From a virus, in IMG/VR virus record IMGVR_UViG_3300007516_000128, positions 1 through 25,297 of that record: 25,297 bases of DNA; one strand, written 5' to 3'. The position numbers were made by a program, and so were the translations under genes. The notes beneath the pieces were generated by a model that saw nothing but the letters and a program-made list of their open reading frames with translations, was not told where the DNA came from and did not search any database. Positions 15,686 to 25,297 of the stretch are shown here, in pieces. Every line of letters starts with the position of its first letter. The first letter of the stretch is position 1.

Positions 15686-15921
15686 CTTTGCTTCCGGAAA
15701 ACGTTATAACTATCGTTATAACTATCGTTATAATAACTATCGTTATGACTATCGTCATGGTCTATATTAAATCGTTCAATATTTTGATTGATTTCTTGAA
15801 CCAAATCAATCAATCTGTTATAATAGTTTTGTCGAATTTGAGGGGAACTCTCCCGATCATTCATACCGTTAACTATTGTTTGTACTGACACTGGTAATGA
15901 GGGTTTCTGTATTTTTTGCAT
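15682..15921 (-). CDS. Small hypothetical protein with Asn/Asp/Tyr-rich repeat tail (79 aa)
   Basis: Seen: 79 residues from ATG 15921, preferred because AAGGA lies 8 nt upstream. This places it 53 nt inside the 3' end of gp55. A shorter start at 15864, just after the gp55 stop, lacks a good RBS. The body contains QIRQNYYNRLIDLVQEINQN, a likely helix. The tail HNDSYYNDSYNDSYN comes from 12-bp DNA repeats and looks disordered. The stop overlaps the gp47 ATG. T4-like phages often carry a small gene between genes 55 and 47, but no function is known. Confidence 0.6.
   Translation of the reverse strand: MQKIQKPSLPVSVQTIVNGMNDRESSPQIRQNYYNRLIDLVQEINQNIERFNIDHDDSHNDSYYNDSYNDSYNVFRKQR
15701..15758. 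repeat. 12-bp tandem repeats (ACTATCGTTATA)
   Basis: About four to five imperfect copies of a 12-bp unit (TATCGTTATAAC and variants) lie at the 3' end of the small gene before gp47. The unit is a multiple of three, so copy-number change would lengthen or shorten the peptide tail without a frameshift. Confidence 0.8.
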
Positions 15922-16459
15922 TTTCTATATCCTTCAATCTCTTCTTTTCCAACCGATTCAAGCGTTTACGTTCTTGCTTGGCCTCATAGTTTTGAATGAA
16001 CAGATTAATGTTATCATATATTTGACCAGATAGCAAGTGATTTTCATCATCCACCAATAGATCTCCCATACCTCCATGTATTATAGTATGTTCAAAGTTC
16101 TTATATTTGATATATCTAGACTTTTCTTCTTCGCCAATTCGGCTGACGAAAGCCCTCCATATAACCATGGTAAAGTAACCAAATGGATTTCTTCGGGGCT
16201 CCTCGATATCATAGCGGTCGAAATATTTAAGACACGTCTCGATTGCATCTCCGATCATTTCCTCGCGAAAACTATAGTTGATGAATTCCCTGGAATAGGA
16301 GGTTCGAATCGCTATATCCTGAATACACTTACCCAAATAGGGAGTGAGTCGGGGTATTATAATACCAGCCGCTTTGGCTTCATCACATTTATGGGTATAT
16401 TTCACTATCTCATCATAGAATTTCTGATTATCAACATAATAATTTGCATTATTCTTCAT
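15869..16459 (-). CDS. 55: Late-transcription sigma factor, gp55-like
   Basis: Role (family): replaces host sigma on RNA polymerase to read TATAAATA-type late promoters, coupled to replication through the gp45 clamp. Seen: 196 residues, against 185 in T4. Region 2-like sequence FREEMIGDAIETCLKYFDRY, then NPFGYFTMVIWRAFVSRIGEEEKS, aligns with the T4 segment WKQEMIADGIEASI...NPHAYITQACFNAFVQRI. The N-terminal YYVDNQKFYDEIVKYTHK parallels T4 YNYVNNKELLQAII. The C terminus is basic and helical (KQERKRLNRLEKKRL), and I see no counterpart of the T4 clamp-binding tail SLDFLYE. The gene starts 29 bp from a divergent plus-strand promoter. Confidence 0.9.
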   Translation of the reverse strand: MKNNANYYVDNQKFYDEIVKYTHKCDEAKAAGIIIPRLTPYLGKCIQDIAIRTSYSREFINYSFREEMIGDAIETCLKYFDRYDIEEPRRNPFGYFTMVIWRAFVSRIGEEEKSRYIKYKNFEHTIIHGGMGDLLVDDENHLLSGQIYDNINLFIQNYEAKQERKRLNRLEKKRLKDIENAKNTETLITSVSTNNS

Positions 16460-16487
16460 TTTTCTGTGTATAACTCCATTTTAAGGA

Positions 16488-16516
16488 TTGACATGGTTTT
16501 TTGATTTGTGTATAAT
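16488..16516 (+). promoter_or_regulatory. Perfect consensus sigma70 promoter on the plus strand
   Basis: TTGACA (16488-16493) and TATAAT (16511-16516) are separated by exactly 17 bp, matching the sigma70 consensus at all 12 positions. It points away from gp55 and into a non-coding gap on the strand that carries no genes here. The predicted start is near 16523. Confidence 0.9.
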
Positions 16517-16522
16517 AGGCCT

Positions 16523-16796
16523 TAGAAACCCCTTAGATAACGTTTCTTAAACGTTTAACGTTAAAGACCTCAAGAAAACCGTAGATAACGTTAGAAAAAT
16601 AAAACCCTACGACGACGAACGGAGCGAAGCGGAGTGAGGAGGAGTAGAAAAACTTAGCAGAGTTTCTTAATGTATCACCTTAAGAAACCGTTACAACCCT
16701 TTGATTTACTTGAGGTTTCACTTAATGTAACAACCCGTTAGATTGTATCTCACTACGTTCGATACAATGCTCCGCTGCGCTCCGCGGGTTTTTTTT
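16523..16796 (+). ncRNA. Candidate orphan structured non-coding RNA (about 270 nt)
   Basis: Seen: no convincing reading frame lies in this stretch on either strand; the longest plausible plus frame is about 24 codons with no RBS. It is bounded by a perfect promoter and a T8 terminator. Structures include AACGTTT-CTT-AAACGTT (16539-16555) and GTTTCTTAA/TTAAGAAAC (16662-16670 with 16680-16688). Long-range pairs are ACCTCAAG/CTTGAGGT (16567-16574 with 16709-16716), GTTACA/TGTAAC (16690-16695 with 16726-16731), and a 14-of-15 complement, CGGAGCGAAGCGGAG (16620-16634) with CTCCGCTGCGCTCCG (16770-16784). AACGTT occurs four times (16539, 16550, 16557, 16587). Inferred: a host-polymerase-transcribed regulatory RNA, or an origin-associated transcript. 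I recognise no known RNA family. Confidence 0.7.
16732..16796 (+). terminator. Rho-independent terminator of the plus-strand RNA
   Basis: An inner hairpin ATTGTATC/GATACAAT (16742-16749, 16761-16768) is enclosed by AACCCG (16732-16737) and CGGGTT (16785-16790), and merges into a run of eight T (16789-16796). The stem is composite, with a GC-rich 3' bulge that can instead pair with 16620-16634. The terminator ends 9 nt before the stop codon of the convergent Sm-like gene. Confidence 0.7.
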
Positions 16797-16804
16797 CAAA
16801 GGTA

Positions 16805-17296
16805 CTATTTACCAGGCGGTTTCGTTAACTTCCGTAACTCACTCTTGACGAATTTCTTCACGTTCTTATTATTATCTATGGAAGGCTCCAACCTATCCAT
16901 CGTATCCAATATTTCCTGAGTAGTATTTTTTACGGGTGTTAGTACATTGGAAATCTTGATTGATTCTGTATAGGCCTTGTAAGCCATCATATAACTATCC
17001 GTTAATGATTCGGAAGGTTCGGCCGTGGTTAGTACATCCTGGGTATATATTTTATAGGGTTCGGTATTATTCACCATTGCATCCCAAAACCATGGTTTAA
17101 ACCCGATTTTCCATAACCTAGTTTTCCGATCCTGAAAGGTGGTTATGACAAATGGTACAGATATAATGTAATGATCCGCATCCATATCATCTTGCACATC
17201 GACACAAAGGCCGATCAAGTCTGTTCCATTTTGCAACCTTAATATTAGTAGTTCGCTTTCCATTTCATTATCGAAATTTTCAGATTCTGGTTCCAT
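16805..17296 (-). CDS. Phage protein with Sm-like N-terminal fold (163 aa)
   Basis: Seen: 163 residues. ELLILRLQNGTDLIGLCVDV (15-34) has the strand-turn-strand 'L.NG..IIG.V' signature of Sm-type barrels. It is followed by YIISVPFVI, FKPW and the motif TTAEPSESLTDSYMMAY (about 90-106), then a helical charged tail. From memory, marine T4-like phages carry a family with the same order (small-barrel motif, 'F.PW', 'EPN/S..L...Y..M'), of unknown function. GGAG precedes the ATG. It follows uvsW at a 12-nt gap and its 3' end faces the terminator of the candidate RNA. RNA binding is possible from the fold but untested. Confidence 0.65.
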   Translation of the reverse strand: MEPESENFDNEMESELLILRLQNGTDLIGLCVDVQDDMDADHYIISVPFVITTFQDRKTRLWKIGFKPWFWDAMVNNTEPYKIYTQDVLTTAEPSESLTDSYMMAYKAYTESIKISNVLTPVKNTTQEILDTMDRLEPSIDNNKNVKKFVKSELRKLTKPPGK

Positions 17297-17308
17297 TATT
17301 GGATCTCC

Positions 17309-18769
17309 TTAATTAAGCTGAATTTTATATTGCTTGTATGCAAACTTCTCGGTTGCATATATTTGCAGTCTTTCGATGTAGTGTTTCAGGGTTGTATTTT
17401 CATAGCTACCTACCCTTAGGTCATCCGCAATATCATACAACACCGCTTCCTTTCCTGGTAATGGTCTTAGGGCCCTACCTATGGACTGGAGTAGCCGAAC
17501 CTTGGCCTTGTTAGGAAAGGCAATGATCAGGTTGACAAGGTTTTTGATGTTGGAGCCGCGGGAGAAGGTACCAGTTGACGCAATGAGTATAGCATTGGTT
17601 TCCGTCTCCATGATCTTTCTAAACTGTTCCCGTATTTCAATATCAGTGCTTCCATCTATGTAATATACATTACGTCCTGTTCCCTCAAGCTTCTCGGTTA
17701 TGATATCTCGCAACACTTTACCATGTTTATCCACATACCGATATAGTATTAATGTATTCCCTTTAAGGGAAACCGCTAAATTCGCGATATAATTGTTGCG
17801 AGCAGTACATCCTATCAAAAACTCGATTTCCTCTTGATAATTGAATTTCCTGGGAATAAGTGTCGATTTGTGCTTTAGAATCAATGCTTTAATTTTGAAC
17901 TTTGATAGAACTCCCTTTTCGATCAATCCCTGTGTGGTTACCGTTTGATTGACTGATCCAAATAATCCCTCAAGGGTATATTTGGATACTTTGGTGCCAT
18001 TTAACGTGCCGGTCATACCTATTCGATATTCTGCATTAGTGGATGATTCGACTATATGCTTCAATGACTTGGCATCACATTCATGGGCCTCGTCCCCTAA
18101 AATAGCTGTATACTGGGAAAACCATTTTGTTGGTTTTGTGTATATTGATTGCCATGTTGATACAATAATTGGCTTGGTTGAGTCTTTTTCAATACCACCG
18201 TATACCTGGTGGCAGAATTCTCTGGCTTCAGTCCAGCCGTATTCCTCGAAATCCGTAATCATTTGGCTGGTAAGGGCAATGGTGGGTACCGTCAATAACA
18301 TCTTGGTATCAGACTTGTTTTTCAACAACCATCTGATAACGACGTATATTATGAGACTTTTACCCGACGCGGTGGGACTGATAACAAGTATTTTCTTCCG
18401 CCTAATAACATCAATGAAATACTTGAGTTGGTAATCTCTTAAGGGATAGGGTAGATTGAGTGAGGCGATAAATTCTTCAGCCTCTACAATTGAAAGTTCA
18501 TTTTGAAACTCATTGGTTGCATCATCAATATTATATGATCTTTCATGGGCCCATTGTTCAATATACGGTAGCAATCCCATGTAGCATCGTTTGGTATACC
18601 GATTTAGTAACCGTATCTTACCATCCCATACTTTATTCTTGAATAATGGATGCCACTTATAGTTGTTTGCAAAAAAAGATAGGTATTCTGATAGACCCAT
18701 AATGATACCATCATCGGCGTCTATGTGAATCCAAGTCTCGTCTATTTTTCTAATCGTGATATCAGCCAT
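17309..18769 (-). CDS. uvsW: UvsW-like helicase (SF2 ATPase)
   Basis: Role (family): unwinds branched DNA and R-loops, helping the switch from origin to recombination-dependent replication. Seen: 486 residues from ATG 18769, which overlaps the uvsY stop by 8 nt. A longer frame reaching back into uvsY is not needed. Motifs: RDYQ (111-114), Walker A SPTASGKS (131-138), TVPTIALTSQM (160-170), DEAH (226-229) and GMTGTL (251-256). In the second RecA domain are the late motifs LIASTGTFSRGSNIKN and QSIGRALRP. The N-terminal 100 residues form the small UvsW-type DNA-binding domain. Length is close to T4 UvsW (about 500 aa). Position next to uvsY supports the call. Confidence 0.95.
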   Translation of the reverse strand: MADITIRKIDETWIHIDADDGIIMGLSEYLSFFANNYKWHPLFKNKVWDGKIRLLNRYTKRCYMGLLPYIEQWAHERSYNIDDATNEFQNELSIVEAEEFIASLNLPYPLRDYQLKYFIDVIRRKKILVISPTASGKSLIIYVVIRWLLKNKSDTKMLLTVPTIALTSQMITDFEEYGWTEAREFCHQVYGGIEKDSTKPIIVSTWQSIYTKPTKWFSQYTAILGDEAHECDAKSLKHIVESSTNAEYRIGMTGTLNGTKVSKYTLEGLFGSVNQTVTTQGLIEKGVLSKFKIKALILKHKSTLIPRKFNYQEEIEFLIGCTARNNYIANLAVSLKGNTLILYRYVDKHGKVLRDIITEKLEGTGRNVYYIDGSTDIEIREQFRKIMETETNAILIASTGTFSRGSNIKNLVNLIIAFPNKAKVRLLQSIGRALRPLPGKEAVLYDIADDLRVGSYENTTLKHYIERLQIYATEKFAYKQYKIQLN

Positions 18770-19223
18770 TGGTGGGTCCCGGTCCGAAGTACTTTTCTGC
18801 ATCTAAAATCGTCTTGCATTGCCATGTTCTGCTGTTTATTTCCTTGATAACCGCCTCAGCAAATACTACAATCTCATCATGTATCGCTCGTTTGAGTGTC
18901 AGGTTAATCAAATCGGTATCAGCCGCTAAAACTTCGGGCATTGCTGCATTCATCACCTTATTGTGCGGCCATTGCTCCCAACCGTACTTGGTTAGAGTTT
19001 CGGGGTCTGAGATTTCACCCTTATAGTATGACTTCTTGATACCCACCATTCTATCATAATCGGTCTTGGCTTTTAAGGCCCTTAGTCTATGACGTATTCT
19101 GATGCCGGAGTATTTCGCATGGAGGGAACCGATCTTTGCTGTTTCTGCCGAGATTTCAGTAACATCCAGTTTGCTATCTTTTTCCCACATTGAAATCAAC
19201 TGGTCTATATCTGTGATTATCAT
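18762..19223 (-). CDS. uvsY: UvsY-like recombination mediator
   Basis: Role (family): loads the UvsX recombinase on gp32-coated single strands. Seen: 153 residues with the marine-phage layout: LISMWEKDSKLDVTEISAE at the start, LHAKY at about 34-38, a basic helix (RIRHRLRALKAK), then YYKGEISDPETLTKYGWEQW and VLAADTDLINLTLK. The end, VIKEINSRTWQCKTILDAEKY, matches the conserved UvsY C terminus (I.NR.FQIK..I.W..F). T4 UvsY is 137 aa. It is the first gene behind a near-consensus promoter (19250-19278) and overlaps uvsW. Confidence 0.85.
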   Translation of the reverse strand: MIITDIDQLISMWEKDSKLDVTEISAETAKIGSLHAKYSGIRIRHRLRALKAKTDYDRMVGIKKSYYKGEISDPETLTKYGWEQWPHNKVMNAAMPEVLAADTDLINLTLKRAIHDEIVVFAEAVIKEINSRTWQCKTILDAEKYFGPGPTNG

Positions 19224-19249: not shown

Positions 19250-19278
19250 ATTATAGTCTAAATCTTCTATAAAGTCAA
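19250..19278 (-). promoter_or_regulatory. Near-consensus sigma70 promoter before uvsY
   Basis: On the minus strand TTGACT (19273-19278) and TATAAT (19250-19255) are 17 bp apart, 11 of 12 consensus bases. The predicted start is near 19243, giving a leader of about 20 nt that includes GAGG. It lies between the tail-tube-type gene and uvsY, so it separates late structural from early replication transcription. In T4 the uvsY promoter region also serves as a replication origin. Confidence 0.8.
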
Positions 19279-19777: not shown

Positions 19778-20109
19778 GGTAATACCTTTAATGTTACGGT
19801 ACCAAGTCCTCTAATACCTAATGCGCGGGCTGCTGCTGGAGACAAGTCTATTATCCTGCCGCCCACAAACGGGCCTCTATCATTTATGCGGACAACGATT
19901 GACTTACCCTTATATGTTACTTGAACTCGGGTACCAAAAGCCAAGGTTTTATGTGCGGCTGTCAATGCTTCGCAGTTGAACTTTTCTCCTGAGGCTGTTT
20001 TATTGCCGCACAACCCATCGGAACCTCCATAAACAGAAGCCCCTCCGGTCTGGGCTATAGCCATTGTTACGGTGGATAGCAGTATGATCAGAACTATTAT
20101 GAATTTCAC
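19774..20109 (-). CDS. rlpA: Exported RlpA-like (double-psi beta-barrel) lytic transglycosylase
   Basis: Seen: 111 residues with a classic signal peptide (MK, then IIVLIILLSTVTMAIA, probably cut after AIA or AQ). After it comes a complete small RlpA domain: ASVYG, CGNKTASGEKF, LTAAHKTLAFGTRVQV, IVVRINDRGPF and RIIDLSPAAARALG. E42, H53 and D77 sit where RlpA carries its catalytic Glu, His and Asp. Known: RlpA cuts glycan strands lacking stem peptides. There is no lipobox Cys at the cleavage site and no SPOR domain, so it would be a soluble periplasmic enzyme. The start is GTG, overlapping the stop of the gene before it (GTGA), with AGGTG upstream. A role in lysis or infection is inferred. Confidence 0.85.
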   Translation of the reverse strand: MKFIIVLIILLSTVTMAIAQTGGASVYGGSDGLCGNKTASGEKFNCEALTAAHKTLAFGTRVQVTYKGKSIVVRINDRGPFVGGRIIDLSPAAARALGIRGLGTVTLKVLP

Positions 20110-20591
20110 TTTTGTACACCTGTTTCTGGTTTTAAGGTTAGTAATGTCTTATGGCTCCTATAACCAAATACCCCCCAATACTTATTCTTCAAAATGAACT
20201 TTTGAAACCAGTCAGTTTTCAGTGGTACTCCATAATATTCAGTCACACCCTTACCGTTTGGTAGTGTAGGGTCGATGACGTTATTTTGTTTATCTATAAC
20301 CCAGGCGTGCTCCAGGGGTATACCTAAAAACTCCATATAACCTTCAACATATGTCAAATCTGGATCACTTAACGCCAGCCTACCGGCATTCATAAAGCAT
20401 AGTTTTTGCTGTCCTCGTTTACCAAGATAAGTTTTGTCTCCTTGATTGTAGTTCTTACCGTATTTTATCAAAAAGTCAACAATAGTGCTATCATGACCGA
20501 TACCTTTAAGCATAGACAAGTGACTTCTGACCGATTCGTTGATTGATTTTCTTTTGTATATTTTCATATTAGTATTTAGAGATAAATCCAT
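20106..20591 (-). CDS. Predicted Cys-His-Asp protein (161 aa), unknown function
   Basis: Seen: start at ATG 20591 (MDLSLNTNMKIY), with AGGAG 10 nt upstream. A longer frame to 20660 runs into a plus-strand promoter region and is rejected. The core reads QQKLCFMNAGRLAL with C65, LTYVEGYMEFLGIPLEHAWV with H95, and NNVIDPTLP with D107. This Cys on a helix, His, Asp series is typical of papain/transglutaminase-like folds. The C-H-D spacing equals that of the 143-aa protein at 12461-12892. It is coupled to the RlpA-like gene downstream (GTGA), so a shared cell-wall role is possible. The substrate is unknown. Confidence 0.7.
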   Translation of the reverse strand: MDLSLNTNMKIYKRKSINESVRSHLSMLKGIGHDSTIVDFLIKYGKNYNQGDKTYLGKRGQQKLCFMNAGRLALSDPDLTYVEGYMEFLGIPLEHAWVIDKQNNVIDPTLPNGKGVTEYYGVPLKTDWFQKFILKNKYWGVFGYRSHKTLLTLKPETGVQK

Positions 20592-20624
20592 GCAACTATT
20601 CTCCTGGGAAAGCACCGCTTTTTC

Positions 20625-20653
20625 TTGACATATATGAAAGATTTTGATATAAT
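20625..20653 (+). promoter_or_regulatory. Second perfect consensus sigma70 promoter on the plus strand
   Basis: TTGACA (20625-20630), a 17-bp spacer and TATAAT (20648-20653) match the consensus at all 12 positions. It points right, through the gp23 terminator hairpin and into the gp23 gene in antisense. No coding frame with an RBS follows. The predicted start is near 20660. Confidence 0.8.
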
Positions 20654-20675
20654 GAATCATGGAGTAATGAGAAAT

Positions 20676-25002: not shown

Positions 25003-25297
25003 GTTGTTATCTCCTGTAATTGAGCATTGGTTAGGCGGGTCGGGAAGTAGACGAGGCGGCGGATGTAGCCCGAGAACATGCTTGACGTGTTCGATCCGAA
25101 CCTTGCCGCGCTGACGGTCGGCAGCGTGGCTGCACCATCAGTTAGCGCCGCCGCCCCGTTGATGCTGGCCGCTATATCATTGGTCGCAAATGCCATCGCG
25201 ATCTTGGTGTTGGCGGTAGAGACCGCGAGCAACGCCGCCTGTTGCACCCCGCCTGTGATTACGTTCCCACTCGCGTTGTCCCCCGCACCGTCAATGG
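24999..25297 (-). CDS. LamG/concanavalin-like tail or receptor-binding protein, C-terminal part
   Basis: Seen: a frame open from the window's right edge to TGA 24999, about 98 residues. The internal GTG at 25247 is not a needed start because the frame continues upstream. KIAMAFATNDIAASINGAA is followed by MFSGYIRRLVYFPTRLTNAQ and LQEIT. 'G.I.RL.YYPTRL(S/T)NAQLQ.(I/L)T' is the typical end of LamG/concanavalin-like jelly-roll domains in phage tail-fibre proteins. The DNA is GC-rich and the gene is coupled to the 117-aa gene. The N-terminal part lies outside. Confidence 0.75.
   Translation of the reverse strand, partial: IDGAGDNASGNVITGGVQQAALLAVSTANTKIAMAFATNDIAASINGAAALTDGAATLPTVSAARFGSNTSSMFSGYIRRLVYFPTRLTNAQLQEITT

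Follow-up and report, generated by a model that had tools for sequence, protein, structure and literature searches.

An antisense sigma70-type promoter located just upstream of gp55, the gene of the late-transcription sigma factor, appears from sequence comparison to be an element under selection across a group of T4-like phages that spans cyanophages, marine metagenomic phages and a Stenotrophomonas phage. The case studied here lies in the window, a 25,297-base virus record from an aquatic T4-like myovirus, in which the promoter heads a plus-strand transcription unit for which no protein is apparent. This unit is real in that its promoter, its terminator and its non-coding character are present in the DNA, and from these features we infer its transcription, early timing and function. 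The RNA body, as far as sequence searches indicate, is an orphan and a local elaboration in this lineage. Most of the distant T4-like relatives compared keep the promoter for transcription in the 'wrong' direction at gp55, not the RNA. The timing of the early-to-late change in T4-like phages lacking MotA and AsiA is unsettled (PMC2984593), and an antisense sigma70 promoter at the late sigma-factor gene is a concrete candidate control point for this change.

The plus-strand unit and its neighbors

The capsid protein of the window is 59-63% identical to the capsid proteins of Pelagibacter, Methylophilales and Stenotrophomonas phages. It had been stated that all coding genes around the unit lie on the minus strand, and this holds for the long open reading frames (ORFs) that match known families: gp23, UvsY, UvsW, the Sm-fold gene, gp55, gp47 and gp46 are all carried by that strand. 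The unit occupies a gap of 345 nt (16460-16804) flanked by gp55 and the small Sm-fold gene (SmL), with uvsY-uvsW upstream on the minus strand. The order uvsY-uvsW-SmL-gap-gp55-47-46 is common to annotated cyanophages and phage DLP_6, with small insertions in some. The genes and promoters concerned are as follows.

15869-16459, minus strand: gp55, late-transcription sigma factor (PHROG 234, E 1e-47)
16488-16516, plus strand: perfect sigma70-type promoter, TTGACA-17-TATAAT, 12/12, antisense to the surrounding genes (consensus match)
16805-17296, minus strand: Sm-fold protein of the cyanophage 'methylamine utilization' family (PHROG 471; AlphaFold model compared with 3BY7)
17309-18802, minus strand: UvsW-type helicase (PHROG 16; order uvsY-uvsW-SmL-gp55 as in annotated cyanophages)
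18762-19223, minus strand: UvsY (Pfam UvsY, E 5e-18)
19250-19278, minus strand: nearest good sigma70-type promoter upstream of gp55, TTGACT-17-TATAAT, upstream of uvsY (consensus match)
20625-20653, plus strand: second perfect TTGACA-17-TATAAT, within the first codons of the minus-strand gene 20106-20660 (consensus match)

Both flanking genes had been named correctly in the original prediction, gp55 by its family match and the Sm-like gene by its predicted fold. The AlphaFold model of the latter (pLDDT 79.5) matches 3BY7, a solved Sm/LSm-like protein, with a TM-score of 0.86 by target length, and the Syn1 homolog of the gene belongs to Pfam Sm_like; an Sm-like nature of this neighbor is thus supported by the model. 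A sibling contig, L083, stops within 8 bases of the window end at 25297, perhaps at a common assembly break.

The perfect promoter originally reported in the gap is present at 12/12, and the first base of its -35 box lies 29 nt upstream of the gp55 start codon. Two promoters with a 12/12 match are found in the window and none across 30 Markov-shuffled windows. The second one is directed across the terminator hairpin of gp23 and would read that gene in antisense; a comparable promoter is absent from most relatives, and this site serves as an internal negative control. In the gp55 gap of the window, no minus-strand sigma70 match of at least 10/12 is found, the overlapping sense match reaching only 8/12, so gp55 probably depends on read-through. 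The probable source of a uvsY-uvsW-SmL-gp55 message, as far as the sequence indicates, is the promoter at 19250-19278. As the nearest good minus-strand promoter is situated there, polymerases reading through to gp55 would run head-on, within the gap, into the plus-strand unit, which is encoded opposite the spacer of the presumed uvsW-gp55 message.

Within the unit, the following elements have been located.

16523-16797, plus strand: predicted non-coding RNA of ~275 nt, which begins at the expected start site and includes the whole T-tract (promoter and terminator)
16539-16592, no strand assigned: four AACGTT palindromes, two of them inside TAGATAACGTT repeats, iteron-like (repeat search)
16597-16607, plus strand: AAATAAAACCC, pairing at 10 of 11 positions with GGGTTTTTTTT at 16786-16796 (long-range stem extended into the T-tract)
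16620-16634, plus strand: long-range pairing, 5' arm CGGAGCGAAGCGGAG (14 of 15 positions complementary to the 3' arm at 16770-16784)
16662-16688, plus strand: local hairpin, GTTTCTTAATGT / ACCTTAAGAAAC (pairing search, folding)
16742-16768, plus strand: local hairpin immediately 5' of the terminator, ATTGTATC / GATACAAT (folding)
16770-16784, plus strand: long-range pairing, 3' arm CTCCGCTGCGCTCCG, which shares bases with the terminator hairpin (14 of 15 complement)
16771-16796, plus strand: intrinsic-terminator-like hairpin (16771-16788) followed by T8 (16789-16796) (sequence)

The absence of a coding frame was confirmed, the longest plus-strand ORF within the unit having 23 codons (at 16670) and no Shine-Dalgarno sequence nearby; a mechanically called ORF of 58 amino acids with a TTG start (16743-16919) crosses the terminator. 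The sequence is structured, as had been proposed: the plus strand folds with a minimum free energy of -69.7 kcal/mol, compared with an average of about -55 for shuffled sequences (z -3.1 to -3.6). The minus-strand complement of the gap also folds (z -3.3), and foldability is therefore silent on the strand used. The hairpin-T8 terminator was likewise found, with a modest hairpin (5-bp stem, 8-nt loop, -7 kcal/mol locally), and it is the only one among the plus-strand candidates of the window with an unbroken T8. The 14-of-15 complement described earlier is present and extends through AAATAAAACCC and GGGTTTTTTTT. An attenuator-like choice between this pairing and the terminator stem, which had been suggested as well, is unsupported: alternative pairings exist, but no plus-strand gene lies past the terminator to be controlled, as an attenuator or riboswitch would have.

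Searches for relatives of the RNA body identified no carrier besides the near-identical sibling contig. In agreement with the statement that no known RNA family could be recognized, Rfam at gathering threshold gave no match in the whole window, and the best permissive hit, OmrA-B, reached 20.4 bits against the 40 needed. An exact 35-mer of the RNA body was found in only one IMG/VR contig, L083, which is 99.8% identical overall, is identical throughout the stems, and differs across the gap only at the T-tract (TCTTTT for T8). This difference may be true variation or an assembly error; as it stands, the terminator of the sibling may be weaker. Comparison of the gap with 50,697 phages by blastn returned short fragments only (best E ~0.1), blastn-short and nhmmer against the loci collected at that stage gave no convincing match, and when UvsW or the Sm-like gene was used to look for closer relatives, the sibling alone was retrieved. 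In the pair L060/L062, on the reverse strand, an antisense promoter at the same distance of 29 nt from gp55 is followed in the gap by another terminated and structured transcript (folding z -4.2), the sequence of which is unrelated. Both the window and L060/L062 have the 13-mer TTAGATTGTATCT immediately ahead of the terminator. It was considered as a sign of homology and rejected as chance, since the base pairing of the two hairpins differs and a scan of the collection for this 13-mer before a T-run gave 21 stretches, none of them near gp55.

Antisense promoters upstream of gp55 in relatives

The gp55 loci were collected in three IMG/VR searches and selected by gp55 similarity, mostly at 35-55% gp55 identity. 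ORFs and gaps were called mechanically, and promoters were scored as consensus matches. After removal of similar sequences, 83 distinct gp55-upstream gaps were retained, and 196 other same-strand gaps from the same loci were used as controls. A sigma70 match of at least 10/12 on the opposite strand is present in 66 of the 83 gp55 gaps, of at least 11/12 in 43 and a perfect match in 16. The corresponding numbers are 22, 4 and 2 in the control gaps, and 7.7, 0.35 and 0.05 in shuffled gp55 gaps. The enrichment over the control gaps corresponds to an odds ratio of 31 and a P of 8e-29, which is nominal because relatives are not independent samples. The original prediction had named conservation of promoter and stems in relatives keeping the flanking genes as its check, and had described the gene as an orphan. 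For the promoter, conservation is strong and the description does not hold; for the RNA body the description is apt, and the stems were found only in the window and its near-identical sibling.

Among named phages, the antisense promoter is found at 11/12 in S-RSM4, S-SSM7, Syn1, DLP_6 and Syn9, and at 10/12 in DSL-LC02. In the 177-kb genome of Syn9, six minus-strand sites reach at least 11/12, and only the one at gp55, with its -10 box at about 123.7 kb, is intergenic. The promoter is also found where UvsW directly precedes gp55 without an Sm-like gene (L067, L196, L216 and L230). In L196, the gap of 227 nt behind a UvsW-sized gene contains two stable hairpins, CGGGCTGTGCCCG and GTGCGAAGCAC, after the antisense promoter. 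In L213, two perfect antisense promoters are arranged in tandem upstream of gp55, which is an argument for selection; each has a similar dyad at its start site and GTTGAATAATACTAATG behind it, and the element has apparently been duplicated. On the other hand, the antisense promoter is dispensable, as it is missing from 17 of the 83 gaps and in many relatives no gap precedes gp55.

Sixty-five distinct antisense promoters show a preference for T-G-T 6-8 nt past the -10 box, which is the expected location of the start site; the bases of the window at these positions are TTA. Beyond T-G-T, A+T richness is all that the antisense promoters have in common downstream. DNA dyads centered on T-G-T, such as CACTGTGTAGCAGTG and AACTCTGTCAGAGTT, are seen in many lineages and might be operators. 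A start-site hairpin (AACTCTGTCAGAGTT and similar) was considered as a conserved RNA element, with 21 stable cases compared to 10.3 in shuffles; it is not claimed as such, since TGT at the expected start site would put the 5' arm in untranscribed DNA.

In many relatives, gp55 has a sense sigma70 promoter of its own, with its -35 box next to the antisense -35 box or overlapping it; for this geometry only, gp55 relatives from assemblies of bacteria and archaea (at most 45% identical) were also used. The transcripts would differ in their reach. No terminator is found within 350 nt past the antisense start in 61 of 63 relatives, so a transcript there would enter SmL and uvsW in antisense, while in the window and L060/L062 it is predicted to close inside the gap.

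Possible roles of the antisense transcription

The reading that we favor, with a probability of about 0.45, is that the antisense promoter has a cis role: early and in dependence on sigma70, its head-on transcription would brake or insulate at the border of the gp55-47-46 unit. Early in infection, host RNA polymerase with sigma70 would start at about 16523 and stop at about 16797, firing head-on against read-through messages from uvsY-uvsW-SmL towards gp55 and producing an RNA antisense to the SmL-gp55 spacer. While sigma70 dominates, gp55 and the genes behind it would be insulated or braked. Once gp55 takes the polymerase, the sigma70 promoter would become silent and the brake would be released. 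In lineages with a back-to-back sense sigma70 promoter of gp55, both promoters would also compete for polymerase. The promoter is kept without its RNA sequence, indicating that transcription itself matters and not the RNA product. Against a brake, it can be noted that the structured body of 275 nt exceeds what a pure brake needs. A sigma-exchange switch operating in most aquatic T4-like phages is also conceivable, though rather unlikely. While the host sigma rules, head-on transcription would restrain gp55, and gp55 would release itself by silencing the promoter, a positive feedback on the change from early to late genes; a few lineages would have turned the antisense transcript into a terminated and structured RNA, possibly bound by the adjacent Sm-like protein.

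The main rival to the cis brake is that the site serves as a replication origin resembling T4 oriE or an R-loop origin, in which the early antisense transcript would remain annealed to an unwinding region and prime the leading strand, and the AACGTT and TAGATAACGTT repeats would be iterons. An early-type promoter, direct repeats, an A+T-rich stretch (65%) and the adjoining uvsW and uvsY are all present at the window's gap, and transcription conserved without RNA sequence fits an R-loop primer. However, the repeats (two copies of TAGATAACGTT and four of AACGTT in 54 nt) are not evenly spaced 12-mers, and although at least four copies of AACGTT occur in 0.05% of shuffled gaps, one hexamer or another recurs four times inside a 54-nt stretch in 11% of shuffles. 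In addition, the gaps of most relatives are too short to hold repeats, the cumulative GC and AT skews of Syn9 have no extremum at gp55, and the window has no skew switch at the gp55 gap, which leaves an origin a doubtful explanation. Silencing of uvsW and the Sm-like gene by cis-antisense transcription alone would block premature UvsW, which would unwind origin R-loops. In T4, a late promoter drives UvsW, which takes origin R-loops apart (PMC3016281), and the open-ended transcripts of most relatives would suit such a role; in the window and L060/L062, however, the transcript is predicted to stop short of the Sm-like gene, which makes uvsW silencing impossible there and the explanation as a whole quite improbable.

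Hfq-bound small RNAs occur in bacteria, and by analogy the unit could encode a small RNA that acts in trans or is bound by a protein, for which the adjacent Sm-fold protein would be a possible partner. The promoter, the terminator, the 3' U8 and the fold are present, the synteny of the Sm-fold neighbor with the promoter is conserved, and L060/L062 carry their terminated, structured transcript at the same place. A trans-acting RNA is possible for these two terminated lineages; in general, however, we consider a small RNA unlikely, as the RNA body is not conserved, the promoter persists in the four loci without an Sm-like gene there, a single 12-nt match is all that was found in the window outside the gap, and in the sibling the U8 run is interrupted. 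A further account would be promoter-like DNA, fortuitous or inert, in a gap that does not code. A+T-rich phage DNA readily gives weak sigma70 matches (48 against 31 expected in the scanned 10 kb), and the second perfect plus-strand promoter, beside gp23, is unconserved. Yet the enrichment in gp55 gaps over controls and shuffles far exceeds chance, which refutes this account for the promoter as a group and makes it highly improbable overall.

Comparison with known systems

Structured RNAs have been described in other marine T4-like phages that are capsid-protein relatives of the window, namely a glutamine riboswitch and a permuted tmRNA in the Melnitz and Mosig phages (PMC9004378). The RNA predicted for the gp55 gap resembles them in being structured and in its type of phage, but differs in that it matches no Rfam family. 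In T4, oriE consists of an early-mode promoter and 12-nt direct repeats, while at oriF and oriG promoter transcripts act as R-loop primers that are removed late by UvsW (PMC3016281). The gp55 gap shares with these origins, at the sequence level, an early-type promoter, direct repeats (as in oriE), a predicted non-messenger transcript and the UvsW/UvsY neighborhood. In contrast to them, it has different flanking genes and lacks a skew signal in Syn9.

At adjacent or overlapping divergent promoters, one polymerase can exclude the other, as reported for bidirectional bacterial promoters (PMC12825309). The predicted divergent sigma70 promoters at gp55 in many relatives would similarly be close enough for mutual exclusion. 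They are mostly two complete promoters with adjacent or overlapping -35 boxes at one conserved phage locus, and the window itself is without a good sense partner. Another antisense RNA of a T4-like phage is CfrI of cyanophage S-PM2, which is ~225 nt long and links psbA and a homing endonuclease gene (PMC2984593). As with CfrI, the RNA predicted here from sequence would be made opposite the gene strand. Unlike CfrI, it would lie in a non-coding gap with gp55 and the Sm-like gene as neighbors, with no overlap with psbA or a homing endonuclease gene; it matches no Rfam family, and the promoter of the unit is conserved group-wide.
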